In this document: one piece after another, positions 22,077 through 64,000 of the stretch
Layout: every line of letters begins with the position of its first letter
Position numbering within the stretch: position 1 is the stretch's first letter
From: Bradyrhizobium canariense
Lineage (GTDB): Bacteria > Pseudomonadota > Alphaproteobacteria > Rhizobiales > Xanthobacteraceae
Direction of reading: 5' to 3'
DNA length: 64,000 nt
Assembly: GCF_900105125.1 (NCBI RefSeq)
Contig: NZ_LT629750.1
Coordinates: forward strand, 5,359,001 to 5,423,000
Program-made: the position numbers and the translations under genes
The notes under the pieces: generated by a model
Seen by the model: the letters and a program-made list of their open reading frames with translations, nothing else
Database searches by the model: none
What the model was told of the DNA's origin: nothing

Positions 22077-24485
22077 TCATGCGCGCAACGTACCGCCGGT
22101 CTTCTTGGTCACTTCAGCGACGATCTTGGCGGCAACCGCGTCGATCTCCTGATCGGTCAGGGTCTTTTCGTACGGCTGGATCGTGACCGCGATCGCAATC
22201 GACTTCTTGCCGTCGTCGATGCCCTTGCCCTCATAGACGTCAAACACCGTGACAGCTGTGATCAGCTTTTTGTCCGCTGCTTGCGCCGATCGCACGATGT
22301 CGCCGGCGCGAACGCTGCGATCGACGATGAAAGCAAAATCGCGCGACACCGGCTGGAACGCCGACAGCTCGATCTGCGGCTTGGCGCGGGTCGGCTTTTT
22401 CTTGGCATCGGGGATGCGATCGAGGATCACCTCAAACGCCATCAAAGGCCCGTCGGCACCGAGCGCTTCCAGCGTGCGCGGATGCAGTTCGCCGAAATAT
22501 CCGAGAATATTTTGCGGGCCGATCTGGATGGTGCCTGAACGTCCGGGATGCAGCCAATCGGCGCCGCCGGGCACGATCTGCAGCGCCTGCATCGGCGCGC
22601 CGGCGGCCGACAGAACGGCGAAGGCGTCGGCCTTGGCATCGAGCGCATCGGCCGTGGCCGAGCCGGACCAGTGCCGTCCCATGCCCTTTGACGACGCAAA
22701 GCCGTGACGGATGCCGGCGGCCGCGATCAACTGGTCCTGCGGCTGGTCACCCCTAAAGATCTGCCCGACTTCGAACAGTGCCACATCGGAAAAGCCGCGG
22801 TCGCTGTTGGCTTGAGCCGCGGCCACAAGGCCCGGCAGCAGGCTCGGCCGCATATCCGATAGATCCGACGCAATCGGATTGGCCAGGGCGAGCTCGGCCT
22901 GCCCGCCGCCGAACAATTCGGCTGACGGCTTTGCGATGAACGACCAGGTCACCGCCTCAACCATGCCGCGCGCAGCCAGCGCGCGCTTGGCGCGGCGGGT
23001 GCGCAGTTGGATCGCGGTGAGGATCGGTTTGCGTGGCGCATCGCCGCGCTCGAACGGCGTCATCGGCACCTTGTCGACGCCGACCATGCGCACGATCTCT
23101 TCGACGATGTCAGCCTTGCCATGCACGTCCGAGCGCCAGGAGGGCACAGCGACCTTCATCACCGGGCCGTTACCGGCCATCATGAAGCCGAGATGACTCA
23201 GGATGCGCTTCATCTCTGGAAGCGGCACATCGATCCCCGCGAGGCGCTTGACCTCGGTCAGCGGAAAATCGATCACGCGGTCGTCGCCGAAGGCGTTGCC
23301 GACCACGACATTTTCGGACGGTGTGCCGCCGCACAATTCCATGACCAGTCGCGTGGCCATCTCCAGACCCGGCACCATGAAGGCCGGATCGACGCCGCGC
23401 TCGAAGCGATAGCGTGCATCCGAATTGATACCGAGCTTGCGGCCGGTCTGCGCGATGTTGATCTCGTTCCATAGCGCCGATTCGATCAGCACGTCGGTGG
23501 TGTTCTCGTCGCAGCCCGAGGCCTCGCCGCCCATGATGCCGGCGAGCGATTCGACGCCGTGATCGTCAGCGATCACGCACACGCTGTTGTCGAGCGTGTA
23601 GGTGCGGCCGTCGAGCGCCAGCAGCGTCTCGCCGTCGCGCGCGCGGCGGACGGTGAGATTGCCCTTCACTTTTGCCGCGTCGAACACGTGCAGCGGCCGG
23701 GCGCGATCGTAGGTCATGAAATTGGTGATATCGACCAGCGCATTGATCGGGCGCAGGCCGATCGAAGTCAGGCGCTGCTGCAGCCATTCCGGCGACGGGC
23801 CGTTCTTGACGCCGCGCACCAGCCGCAGCGCAAAGCCCGGACACAGCGTGGCGTCCTCGACGGTGACCTTCACGGGACAGGGAAATTCGCCCTTGATCGG
23901 TTTGATGCCCGGGTCCTTGAACTTGCCCATGTCGGCTGCGCTCAAATCGCGCGCGATGCCATGCACGCCGGTGCAATCCTGCCGGTTCGGCGTCAAATTG
24001 ATTTCGATGACGGGATCGCCAAGCCCGGCCCATTGGGCGTAGCCGGCGCCAATGGGCGCATCGGCCGGCAGCTCCATGATGCCGTCGTGATCTTCCGAGA
24101 GCTGCAATTCCGCCGCCGAGCATAGCATGCCGCGGCTCTCGACACCCCGGATGGTGCCGACGCCGAGCGTGATGTTCTTGCCGGGAATGAAGGTGCCGGG
24201 TGGGGAGAACACGCTGACAAGGCCCGCGCGTGCGTTCGGCGCGCCGCAGACCACCTGCACTGGCGCTGTGCCATTGCCGGTATCCACCATGCAGACCCGC
24301 AAGCGATCCGCATTGGGATGCTGCTCGGCCGAGATCACGCGCGCAACGGTGAAGGCCGACAGCGCTTTCGCCTTGTCCTCGATATGCTCGACCTCCAGTC
24401 CGATCATGGTGAGCTTGTCGGTGAGCCTTTCCAGCGGCTCGTCGGTGTCGAGATGCTCCTTCAGCCAGGAGAGGGTGAATTTCAT
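22077..24485 (-). CDS. pheT: Phenylalanine--tRNA ligase beta subunit
   Basis: The 802-residue beta subunit of the alpha2-beta2 phenylalanyl-tRNA synthetase. The N-terminus [18 protein letters not shown] leads into the tRNA-binding B1 domain (about residues 40-150), the B3/B4 editing region, B5, and the C-terminal anticodon-binding FDX-ACB domain (about 710-802). Its ATG overlaps the stop of the small DUF559 gene by 4 nt, an unusual arrangement because pheS normally directly precedes pheT. Confidence 0.97.
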
Positions 24486-24952
24486 GGCTGCGCGCCTCGA
24501 ATATTGCCGGTGTTCTGTGTGATATCTGCGCCGGCGCCACTGTTCCCTCCCCCCTTGTGGGGGAGGGTTAGGGAGGGGGGTGAGCCGCTTGCCCGGGAAG
24601 ACGCCGCTTGTCGAATCGTTTCCACAACACCTTCCAAGTGGGACATCACCTGTTCATTCCTGAAGCGCAGAACCTGGAAACCTTCCGACACGAAGAAAGC
24701 ATCACGCTTTTCGTCTGCCCTCATTTGCTCTTCGAAATCATGCGAAACGCCGTCGAGCTCGACAATCAACTTGGCCGAGTGACAAAGAAAATCGACGATG
24801 TAATTTTGGATCGGAGTTTGCCTGCGAAAACCGAGGCCATCTACCCGACCAGCTTTCAGGTAACGCCAGAGTAAGGTCTCGGCAGGCGTCATAACCTGGC
24901 GAAGTTGCTTCGCCCGGCCGCGTTGACGTTCCCTGACGATTGCATGCGGCAT
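24482..24952 (-). CDS. DUF559 (very-short-patch-repair-like) endonuclease domain protein inserted between pheS and pheT
   Basis: A 156-residue protein of the DUF559 family, related to Vsr-type PD-(D/E)XK nucleases. Visible family features are the N-terminal [26 protein letters not shown], the nuclease core [18 protein letters not shown] with the expected Asp and Glu, and [12 protein letters not shown]. The last 30 or so residues are low-complexity and encoded by a palindromic repeat (24541-24581). An inverse copy lies just upstream of the ATG, where its G-rich strand could serve as ribosome-binding site. The gene interrupts pheS-pheT and overlaps pheT by 4 nt. Its cellular role is unknown. 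Confidence 0.88.
24541..24581 (+). repeat. 41-bp inverted repeat, copy 1 (inside DUF559 coding end)
   Basis: This segment, beginning tgttccctccccccttgtgg, is the reverse complement of 24961-25001 at 39 of 41 positions. Together the two copies bound a 461-bp unit that carries the DUF559 domain core. Copy 1 encodes the [13 protein letters not shown] tail of the protein. Each copy also has a small internal palindrome. Confidence 0.9.
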
Positions 24953-24960
24953 TTGCGGCT

Positions 24961-25001
24961 ACCCCCCTCCCTGGCCCTCCCCCACAAGGGGGGAGGGAAC
25001 A
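24961..25001 (-). repeat. 41-bp inverted repeat, copy 2 (pheS-DUF559 gap)
   Basis: Partner of 24541-24581, in opposite orientation with two mismatches. It ends 8 nt upstream of the DUF559 ATG. On the minus strand its GGAGGGGGG run could act as the Shine-Dalgarno sequence for that gene. Confidence 0.9.
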
Positions 25002-25035
25002 GGAAGAGCCTGTTGAGAGCTCAGGACGAGATCGC

Positions 25036-26118
25036 TCACGAGCTCAACCCTCCGGCCAGCGTCGGGACATCGAGCGGCTTGAAGCCGTAGTGGCTGAGCC
25101 AGCGCACGTCGCTGTCGAACAATTGCCGCAGGTCCGACATGCCGTATTTCAGCATCGCGATGCGGTCGATGCCCATGCCCCAGGCAAAGCCCTGGTAGAC
25201 GTCGGGATCGATGCCGCAGGCGCGCAGCACGTTGGGATGCACCATGCCGCAGCCGAGAATCTCCAGCCAGTCCTCGCCCTCGCCGAAACGGATTTCACCC
25301 TTGTCGCGGCGGCACTGGATGTCGACCTCGAGCGACGGCTCGGTGAACGGAAAGAACGACGGCCGGAAGCGCATATTGATGTGATCGACCTCGAAGAACG
25401 CCTTGCAGAACTCGTGCAGGATCCATTTGAGGTGGCCAAGGTGCGAGCCTTTGTCGATGACAAGGCCTTCGACCTGGTGAAACTGCGGCGTGTGCGTGGC
25501 ATCGGAGTCGATGCGATAGGTGCGGCCCGGGCAGACGATGCGGATCGGCGGCTTCTGCGTCAGCATGGTACGCACCTGCACCGGCGAGGTGTGGGTGCGC
25601 AGCAGCATGCGCGAGCCGTCTTCCTTCGGATTGAAGAAGAACGTGTCGTGCATTTCCCGCGCCGGATGGCCTTCGGGAAAATTCAGTTTCGTAAAGTTGT
25701 AATCGTCGGTCTCGATGTCCGGCCCTTCGGCGATCGAAAATCCCATGTCAGCGAAGATCGTGGTCAGTTCGTCCATCACCTGGCTGAGCGGATGGATGCG
25801 GCCCTGCTCGGCCGGGGTCTCGCGTAACGGCAGCGTGACGTCGATGGTCTCGGAGGCAAGCCGCGCGTCGAGTGCTGCGGATTTCAGGATGTCGCGGCGC
25901 GTCGTCAGCGCCTGCGTGACCTTGTCCTTGGCGAGATTGATGGCCGCGCCTTGCGTCTTGCGCTCGTCCGGCGACATTTTGCCGAGCGTTGACAGAAGCG
26001 CGGAGATCGAACCCTTCTTGCCGAGTGCGGCGACCCGCACCGCTTCGAGTGCGGCCTCATCGCTTGCGGCGGCGATGTCGGCGAGTACCTGGGATTCGAG
26101 TTGAGCGAGGTCGGACAT
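25036..26118 (-). CDS. pheS: Phenylalanine--tRNA ligase alpha subunit
   Basis: The 360-residue catalytic alpha subunit. An N-terminal coiled-coil tRNA-binding arm (residues 1-90) precedes the class II catalytic core: motif 2 region [27 protein letters not shown] and motif 3 region [15 protein letters not shown] start it at the ATG at 26118 because AGGTGA lies about 8 nt upstream; a GTG four codons earlier is less well supported. The neighbours rplT, rpmI and infC upstream match the usual infC-rpmI-rplT-pheST cluster. Confidence 0.97.
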
Positions 26119-26166
26119 GGCGACGGTCACCTGTTGGGAGCACGCTCGCAGTCCAGCACAAGGCCG

Positions 26167-26258
26167 TTATCATCCGCGAATGCGGATGATCCAGTAACCC
26201 CCGGATCAAAATGCTGGTCGGTGGTTACTGGATGCCCCGCTTACGCGGGGCATGACAC
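26167..26258. repeat. Two-hairpin dispersed repeat, copy A
   Basis: Two hairpins (atcatccgc/gcggatgat at the left, atgccccgc/gcggggcat at the right) are joined by arms containing ccagtaac and gttactgg, giving an overall inverted symmetry. Related copies in the same orientation lie at 28901-28999 and 30437-30535. This one lies between pheS and rplT. Confidence 0.8.
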
Positions 26259-63712: not shown

Positions 63713-64000
63713 TCACCTCTCCCCGGCAGGGAGAGGTCGGCTGCGTAGCAGCCGGGTGAGGGGTCTTTTCTCTCGATCGGGCCGAAGCGTGCCTTCAATC
63801 ATTTCGAGGACCCCCTCGATATTGTCATATACATCGATATTTGAGACGCGGACAATGTGGAAGCCGCACGCCTCCAATACTTCGGAGCGGGCCGTATCTT
63901 TTGCCAGTTCCGATGGTTCGGCATGCGTCACGCCGTCAACTTCGACGATCAGCTTTCCGTCCAGCGTTAGGAAATCAACGACGTACCGATCGATAGAATG
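63713..64000 (-). CDS. DUF559 endonuclease domain protein, N-terminus beyond window edge
   Basis: The reading frame is open to the window end, so only the C-terminal 95 residues are visible. They show the DUF559 core DRYVVDFLTLDGKLIVEVDGVTHAE followed by DTARSEVLEACGFHIVRVSN. The final residues PLTRLLRSRPLPAGER are encoded by a palindromic repeat (63715-63764), as in the other DUF559 gene at 24482-24952. It lies immediately after trpB on the opposite strand. Confidence 0.88.
   Translation of the reverse strand, partial: HSIDRYVVDFLTLDGKLIVEVDGVTHAEPSELAKDTARSEVLEACGFHIVRVSNIDVYDNIEGVLEMIEGTLRPDREKRPLTRLLRSRPLPAGER
63715..63764. repeat. Palindromic repeat forming the end of the second DUF559 gene
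   Basis: cctctccccg/gggagagg and ggctgc/gcagcc hairpins lie in tandem, with gtgagggg at the right edge. The element encodes the last 16 residues of the DUF559 protein and abuts the trpB 3' end. It resembles the G/C-rich repeats flanking the first DUF559 gene in style, not in exact sequence. Confidence 0.7.

Follow-up and report, generated by a model that had tools for sequence, protein, structure and literature searches.

A stand-alone DUF559 nuclease gene between pheS and pheT of Bradyrhizobium canariense, enclosed by an inverted pair of the dispersed palindrome that belongs to it: a candidate REPIN/RAYT-like unit

REPIN/RAYT systems, which pair REP doublets with REP-associated tyrosine transposases (PMC3116915, PMC3733652), are the nearest working model for the DUF559 gene and repeats described here. 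As far as the available parts of those reports go, the likeness extends to short palindromes that often form inverted pairs, to an enzyme gene flanked by or adjoining its own repeat type, to several enzymes per genome with a repeat each, and to repeats that outlast a lost gene. Unlike the RAYT, an IS200-like HUH/Y1 tyrosine transposase, the enzyme of the present unit is a DUF559 nuclease with an EDxHD/Vsr-like fold, and its repeats differ from REPs in combining a G/C-run palindrome with a second G-run and in having no GTAG tag. The CGTC-tagged REPs, mostly of Alphaproteobacteria and described in PMC3733652 as having no association with transposase genes, are likewise dispersed palindromes, mostly inverted dimers, found in Bradyrhizobium among others; unlike the repeats described here they carry a CGTC tag and AT at the stem start, and they were ruled out on sequence as the identity of our repeat.

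The closest repeats are the G/C-rich intrastrand triplex motifs described by Holder in 2015 in E. coli and over 260 genomes (PMC4666352), with Neisseria and Microcystis singled out there for their many copies. The E. coli form, TMECO (earlier PIT), is intergenic, with 23 copies in strain MG1655 that include five inverted pairs; in vitro, TM repeats adopt triplex structures, and they are markers of variable loci. According to the accessible text of that paper, no mobility genes lie close to the motif, and no word there begins with 'nuclease'. TM/PIT repeats and those described here both consist of a C-run/G-run palindrome with a second G-run behind it as a tag, and the published TMECO layout, CCCTCTCCC-loop-GGGAGAGGG-NN-GGGTGAGGG, is by eye that of our arms. 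The available text of RepRanger (PMC12306157) has no word beginning with nuclease, DUF559 or RAYT, and a search of the open literature, with subscription journals and preprints largely outside it, found nothing that joins DUF559 to such repeats. On the enzyme side, the EDxHD homing endonuclease I-Bth0305I, as described in the accessible part of PMC3943268, resembles the unit in its catalytic fold and as a selfish nuclease gene at a conserved place; unlike it, the unit shows no intron or intein and no separate DNA-binding domain and has its own dispersed repeat family. Unlike Vsr, the unit has pheS and pheT as neighbours rather than a cytosine methyltransferase gene. The unit is probably one copy of a REPIN/RAYT-like, two-part selfish or semi-domesticated system in which a DUF559 nuclease would take the place of the tyrosine transposase.

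The analysed window is a stretch of 64,000 nt of the Bradyrhizobium canariense genome (GCF_900105125.1, contig NZ_LT629750.1, positions 5,359,001-5,423,000 of the forward strand), and its relevant features are collected in Table 1. The open reading frame between pheS and pheT matches PF04480 with an E value of 1.9e-36 (124.7 bits against a curated cut-off of 20.6), and within its product Pfam recognised the DUF559 domain, no transposase domain and no separate DNA-binding domain. A sequence-only reading of this DNA had described 41-bp inverted repeats around the nuclease core. The repeats are real and slightly longer than claimed, at 42 nt each, 95% complementary and separated by 379 nt, and the entire domain lies between them. 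Other details of that reading held as well: one arm lies inside the DUF559 frame and codes for part of the protein tail; the other is at the ribosome-binding region, stopping 8 nt ahead of the ATG; and the frame shares 4 nt (ATGA) with pheT. The G-rich tag of each arm faces the gene, and that of the upstream arm occupies, as read from the sequence, the expected Shine-Dalgarno position. A further inverted repeat, with 30-nt arms of 80% complementarity, lies at 26174-26248 between pheS and the next gene and may be a different dispersed repeat.

Table 1. Coordinates of the DUF559 units and neighbouring features in the window.
Feature	Position	Strand	Basis and remarks
DUF559 (PF04480) nuclease gene, 156 aa	24482..24952	-	Pfam profile match; 4-nt overlap with pheT
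DUF559 domain, residues 9-116, EDxHD/Vsr-like fold	24605..24928 (about)	-	Pfam; fold comparisons
Upstream repeat: palindrome CCCTCCCCCCTTGTGGGGGAGGG outer, G-rich tag inner	24961..25002	-	Inverted-repeat search
Downstream repeat, inverted copy of the upstream element	24540..24581	+	Inverted-repeat search
Spacer from pheS stop to first repeat	25003..25035	-	Within the stretch missing from empty alleles
Stretch from second repeat to pheT start, also the end of the DUF559 frame	24486..24539	-	Missing from empty alleles
pheS	25036..26130	-	Named from sequence; served as query
pheT	22077..24485	-	Named from sequence; N-terminus served as query
Repeat arm of second DUF559 unit (clade 4, trpB|trpA), which leaves the window's right end	63715..63763	+	Inverted-repeat search
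Second DUF559 gene, cut at the window end; domain at genome positions 5422788-5423111	63788..64000	-	Genome-wide DUF559 search

A search of the whole B. canariense genome found seven DUF559 matches. Of these, five are genes that stand alone, each with inverted palindrome copies on both sides. They are located at pheS|pheT, ureB|ureC, dnaN|recF and trpB|trpA and between a pair of ABC ATPase genes, one of which has a branched-chain amino acid transporter domain, the neighbours other than pheS and pheT having been checked with Pfam. Four of the five run in the sense of the operon and the trpB|trpA copy is antisense. This last unit, of clade 4, reaches into the right end of the window (63715-64000) and has its own repeat, different from that at pheS|pheT; its arms, at 1428-1476 and 1832-1880 of the extracted trpB|trpA locus (L005), agree at 94%. 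The remaining two DUF559 domains belong to larger frames, one of 402 aa with a SpoU methylase domain and one of 1666 aa, whose flanks have no such repeats. In the former (L006:619-1824) the DUF559 domain is C-terminal to the SpoU domain within a single frame, and weak DUF559 matches in frames of about 400 aa were seen in several relatives. With up to three mismatches, the palindrome pattern has 47 forward matches in the genome, which merge to 33 distinct places when shifted registers are combined, and the reversed control pattern has none. Several of these places form inverted pairs, spaced by 66-141 bp, that enclose no DUF559 gene, and some gene-less pairs and the ends of the window unit share by eye a common inner edge, about TAAGCCGC.

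Flanking was compared among genomes by searching 160-nt windows on either side of each gene with an inverted-repeat score of 13 as cut-off. Sixty Bradyrhizobium genomes gave 131 different DUF559 loci among the matches listed, 130 of them with enough flank; the loci analysed were strong matches among those listed, for the genus nearly all of good length and for the other samples a part of the listed strong matches, best first. The score was reached by 116 of the 130 genus loci (86 of 96 in a smaller, earlier set), compared with 2 of 461 displaced windows and none of 383 in a separate earlier run. Because of this difference, the 42-nt inverted repeat around DUF559 is not a product of chance. Among other Alphaproteobacteria 45 of 70 loci passed; beyond the class, 8 of 16 loci in the phylum sample passed and 8 fell below, as did 8 and 9, respectively, in a further set of 17 loci that includes one cut at its edge and one titled as an Anaerolineae bin, with 2 of 192 displaced windows passing for these two sets. 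The weaker flanking farther out, with 25 of the 70 other alphaproteobacterial loci below the cut-off, counts against a REPIN/RAYT-like reading. Inspection of flanks still found a G-run palindrome beside many sub-threshold loci, either on a single side or on both.

By exact palindrome pattern, 82 of the 130 genus loci had a copy on both sides, 12 on one side and 36 on neither. The tag was on the gene side in 96 upstream and 94 downstream arms of the 130; 11 downstream arms had it reversed, and no palindrome was found by the pattern in 26 upstream and 15 downstream positions. In other Alphaproteobacteria the tag faced the gene at only 16 of 70 upstream and 21 of 70 downstream arms, with 9 and 2 reversed and the palindrome missing at 37 and 34. 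Repeats of the same kind also occur beside unrelated genes, a situation that the sequence-only reading had counted against a mobile unit; this is true of the gene-less copies, as in REPIN systems, and paired repeats are nonetheless far commoner around DUF559 genes than in displaced windows. Taken together, several comparisons establish that stand-alone DUF559 genes belong with a palindrome family of their own.

The relation between nuclease and palindrome was followed by grouping the DUF559 proteins of the genus at 62% identity. The palindromes of the nine clades with at least two members are mostly distinct; those of clades 2 and 4 resemble each other in the stem, and the loop of clade 2 has many variants. 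Arm similarity was correlated with protein identity across 3,920 locus pairs from different sites (rho 0.33, the maximum in 300 permutations being 0.09), with medians of 9-12.5 below 55% protein identity and 18.5-30.5 above it. The same correlation within genomes, over 69 pairs, was not significant (rho 0.20, permutation maximum 0.41). Three palindrome types were then counted in the 60 genomes and compared by one-sided tests. Median counts with and without the matching clade were 16 versus 2 for type 0 (p = 8e-6), 14 versus 4 for type 3 (p = 1.5e-4) and 16 versus 0 for type 5 (p = 5e-6), and after subtraction of two arms per gene the p values were 2e-4, 2e-3 and 1e-5. Fourteen of the fifteen off-diagonal combinations of type and clade were not significant, the exception being type 0 with clade 2 (p = 0.006). 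In independent pairs on the pheS-pheT tree, the mean numbers in the same versus the other direction were 4.5/0.4, 4.5/0.3 and 3.6/0; each of these tests alone fails the 0.05 level (median p 0.125), and rounded and pooled they stand at 13 to 1 (p = 0.002). Comparison of genomes thus shows clades matched to palindromes, and repeat numbers that depend on the presence of the matching nuclease.

At least eight repeats with no intact matching gene were found in 11, 13 and 9 of the 60 genomes for types 0, 3 and 5. Three of the type-5 cases, G058 (51 repeats), G028 (45) and G020 (15), have a broken clade-5 gene in place of an intact one. A broken matching gene accounts for only these three; the other six type-5 cases are unexplained, and none of the 11 type-0 and 13 type-3 genomes is explained in this way. 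One genome (G048) has 65 type-0 repeats and a broken gene of clade 7. Truncated DUF559 matches in G049 and G011 lie outside the locus set, and the truncated gene of G011 may, or may not, be the partner of the 11 type-5 repeats in that genome.

Repeat numbers were also compared in wider samples, with a genome counted as a carrier if its best DUF559 match was below E = 1e-20. Among 241 alphaproteobacterial genomes, 80 had any match, 23 of them weaker or partial and counted as non-carriers, and the median repeat number was 16 in the 57 carriers and 0 in the 184 others. At least five repeats were present in 44 of 57 carriers and 15 of 184 non-carriers (odds ratio 38, p = 9e-24), and 39 carriers remained at that level after two arms per match were subtracted (odds ratio 24). 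In the 23 families holding both kinds, carriers were higher in 19, lower in 2 and equal in 2. Outside the class, where weaker matches were likewise counted as non-carriers, 186 pseudomonadotal genomes gave at least five repeats in 20 of 27 carriers and 9 of 159 others (odds ratio 48, p = 2e-14); the arm correction left 20 of 27, and the families divided into 6 up, 1 down and 1 tie. By the general pattern, the genus sample had a median of 90 repeats in 53 genomes with an intact stand-alone gene and 23 in the 7 without (p = 0.006), an exception among the latter being G002, with 164 matches. Fewer than five repeats were present in 13 of the 57 carriers of the class and 7 of the 27 outside it, which counts against a nuclease that spreads the repeats. 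The non-carriers with at least five repeats and no strong DUF559 match (15/184 and 9/159) would be expected if a RAYT or another transposase moved the repeats and DUF559 genes had merely been caught between two of them. We consider such a passenger role very improbable in view of the flanking of 116 of 130 loci against 2 of 461 displaced windows, the matching of palindromes and their counts to clade, the two repeat-free DUF559 fusions of B. canariense and eight junctions with an ASCH-domain gene, described below, that have no repeat by the pattern used.

In E. coli MG1655 a DUF559 gene, ycjD, is located between sapF and fabI, and one of the 23 motif copies follows it at a distance of about 170 bp. 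The probability of such closeness by chance is about 0.004, calculated post hoc, and unlike the window unit ycjD has a repeat on one side only. Behind the gene (L307:5028-5407) a stretch resembling its 3' end occurs again by eye, like the partial remnant of another DUF559 copy. In two other strains, CB9615 and R11 (L308, L309), RND efflux genes adjoin fabI where K-12 has ycjD; the presence of these genes behind fabI ruled out both strains as a precise ycjD-empty site.

Thirteen columns are invariant across 29 DUF559 domains, that of the window protein included. A profile of these 29 domains matched structure 3hrl, titled in its record as a Neisseria gonorrhoeae protein, at E = 1e-37 and the homing endonuclease I-Bth0305I at E = 0.0021. 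The predicted structure of the window protein, of moderate confidence (mean pLDDT 69.9), had the same two as best Foldseek matches, at E = 1e-7 and E = 1.7e-4 (TM 0.80 by target length) respectively; the match to a Vsr structure was weak (E = 0.08). Among NCBIfam models the nearest, PRK09767 for a DUF559 protein, stayed below its cut-off, and PADLOC gave partial matches only, the best to DpdF at E = 1.5e-6. A simple count within five clades puts dN/dS at 0.08-0.09, dS being close to saturation, and this comparison shows the gene to be under purifying selection. Databases name DUF559 proteins 'very-short-patch-repair endonuclease' or 'endonuclease domain-containing protein'. To our knowledge, they have no settled role beyond the work on VsrA in Caulobacter.

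Purifying selection would also fit a structure-processing repair enzyme, in which a Vsr-like nuclease handles hairpins or triplexes that disturb replication, the flanking copies are self-regulatory, and the repeats are spread by replication errors or another agent. The available text on TM repeats, with its triplexes in vitro and variable loci (PMC4666352), and that on VsrA, a Caulobacter DUF559 protein behind a DNA damage response without a cytosine methyltransferase (PMC12907096), agree with such a function. A general repair enzyme would need neither a separate clade for each palindrome type nor palindrome flanks at several different sites, and the unit adjoins pheS and pheT rather than a methyltransferase gene. 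This reading is regarded as rather improbable.

The pheS|pheT junction was compared in 59 of the 60 genus genomes, G048 having been left out since its pheS was present only as fragments. A DUF559 gene occupies 27 junctions (18 of clade 3 and 9 of clade 0), one of which (G014) is cut; 11 are empty, 8 hold an ASCH-domain gene, 6 are short scars with repeat remains, one is a gene-less repeat pair, one is a short spacer, 4 contain different inserts and one (G039) is cut. The empty junctions include that of the nearest relative by pheS identity (G031, 97%). Mapped on the pheS-pheT tree, where the states are mixed, the presence or absence of DUF559 requires at least 14 changes, and well-supported sisters differ: G026 and G046 are empty and their respective sisters G042 and G007 occupied, and G017 has a clade-0 gene where G033 has one of clade 3. 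These comparisons show gain and loss at a single junction. A DUF559 gene conserved without repeats in all relatives, which the sequence-only reading had named as evidence against mobility, is excluded.

In that reading, an empty site with a precise absence of 461 bp would have supported mobility. None was found at pheS|pheT in the 59 genus junctions: pheS and pheT share 4 nt when the junction is empty and are 529-670 nt apart when it is occupied (exceptions G012, 403, and G034, 1041), so the inserted length exceeds the repeat-to-repeat unit and the spacer outside the repeats must have been inserted too. What stands of the proposed small mobile unit is a repeat-bounded nuclease gene in host operons that occurs at several sites, is missing from the pheS|pheT junction of relatives and has gene-less counterparts in pairs of its repeat; its exact empty site does not stand. 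An RTGA of 4 nt at both edges of the insert could be a target-site duplication or merely the overlap of start and stop, and unrelated inserts at the same junction have RTGA too. A non-exhaustive look brought up no genome with a recent second copy of the unit at another site. An identical DUF559 pair in G011 was ruled out as recent movement, the gene being part of a 3-kb stretch present twice on contig 16 (L150, L151), inverted and 100% identical, which is either an assembly fault or a recent large duplication.

Occupied and empty alleles mixed on the tree, a fold closest to I-Bth0305I after the DUF559 structure 3hrl, and re-use of junctions, the four most often used of which account for 27, 13, 13 and 12 genus loci, are all consistent with a free-standing homing endonuclease whose gene spreads only by cutting its own empty junction while the palindromes hitch-hike as recognition context. 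Homing of this kind leaves unexplained both the genome-wide dependence of repeat number on nuclease clade and the likeness of the arms when similar proteins are encoded at different sites, and we regard it as unlikely. The ASCH junctions (L110:2547-2969 and those of G038, G023, G019, G024, G032, G036 and G044) were assigned by Pfam in one of the eight and by sequence likeness in the others. Junctions of G051 and G027 have an ASCH-like gene plus one repeat.

The suggestion that translation of pheT may depend on the inserted gene gained weight from the overlap of DUF559 stop and pheT start (ATGA), which recurs at all 25 measurable junctions of the 27 occupied (in G009 the motif was not located by the script, and G014 is cut); coupling is here deduced from the overlaps. 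In 17 of the 18 clade-3 junctions a frame is open from the GTG at the pheS stop to the ATGA, G034 being out of frame, and the 8 measurable clade-0 junctions have one stop 23-28 codons into the same frame. That frame is also open in the six scars, the gene-less pair, the spacer and 4 of the 8 ASCH junctions. Comparison thus shows a frame running from pheS to pheT through most inserts and, since it is open in most of them, it could pass translation from one gene to the other, making a stop-to-start translational relay possible. The open frame from GTGA (pheS stop) to ATGA (pheT start) is found even in scars after loss of the gene.

In the REPIN/RAYT-like reading, the stand-alone nuclease lies between two inverted copies of its dispersed palindrome, and the gene-less, REPIN-like pairs scattered in the genome would be its non-autonomous partners. 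The nuclease may recognise its own palindrome as duplex, hairpin or triplex and cut or nick at the palindrome or at target junctions, after which repair would copy the two repeats, either alone or together with the gene, to new places. The likeness of the fold to homing endonucleases suggests break-and-copy, rather than cut-and-paste transposition, as the way of moving between strains. Persistence in pheS|pheT may be favoured by a frame that ends on the pheT start, since operon transcription and, to judge by the overlaps, coupled translation would be kept. A nuclease that moves the repeats would be the simplest explanation for the correlation of clade and repeat, and the clade-specific repeat versions suggest that it may be the spreader of a repeat without a known mover.

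Partnerships of enzyme and repeat are already known, and the present findings make a case for a second origin of them. More tentatively, and at somewhat short of an even chance, stand-alone DUF559 proteins may be the missing movers of TM/PIT repeats throughout the Pseudomonadota, YcjD included, and so a second, unrelated invention of the REPIN/RAYT kind, based on an enzyme that resembles homing endonucleases. If this is true, several clade-matched pairs of nuclease and palindrome are at work side by side in one genome, and such pairs offer ready-made controls of specificity. The tie between DUF559 and triplex repeats, drawn from clades and from counts per genome, supplies a testable function for each of them, and the pheS|pheT junction illustrates a way in which two essential, co-translated genes could come to accommodate a selfish gene, namely one that relays translation from stop to start.
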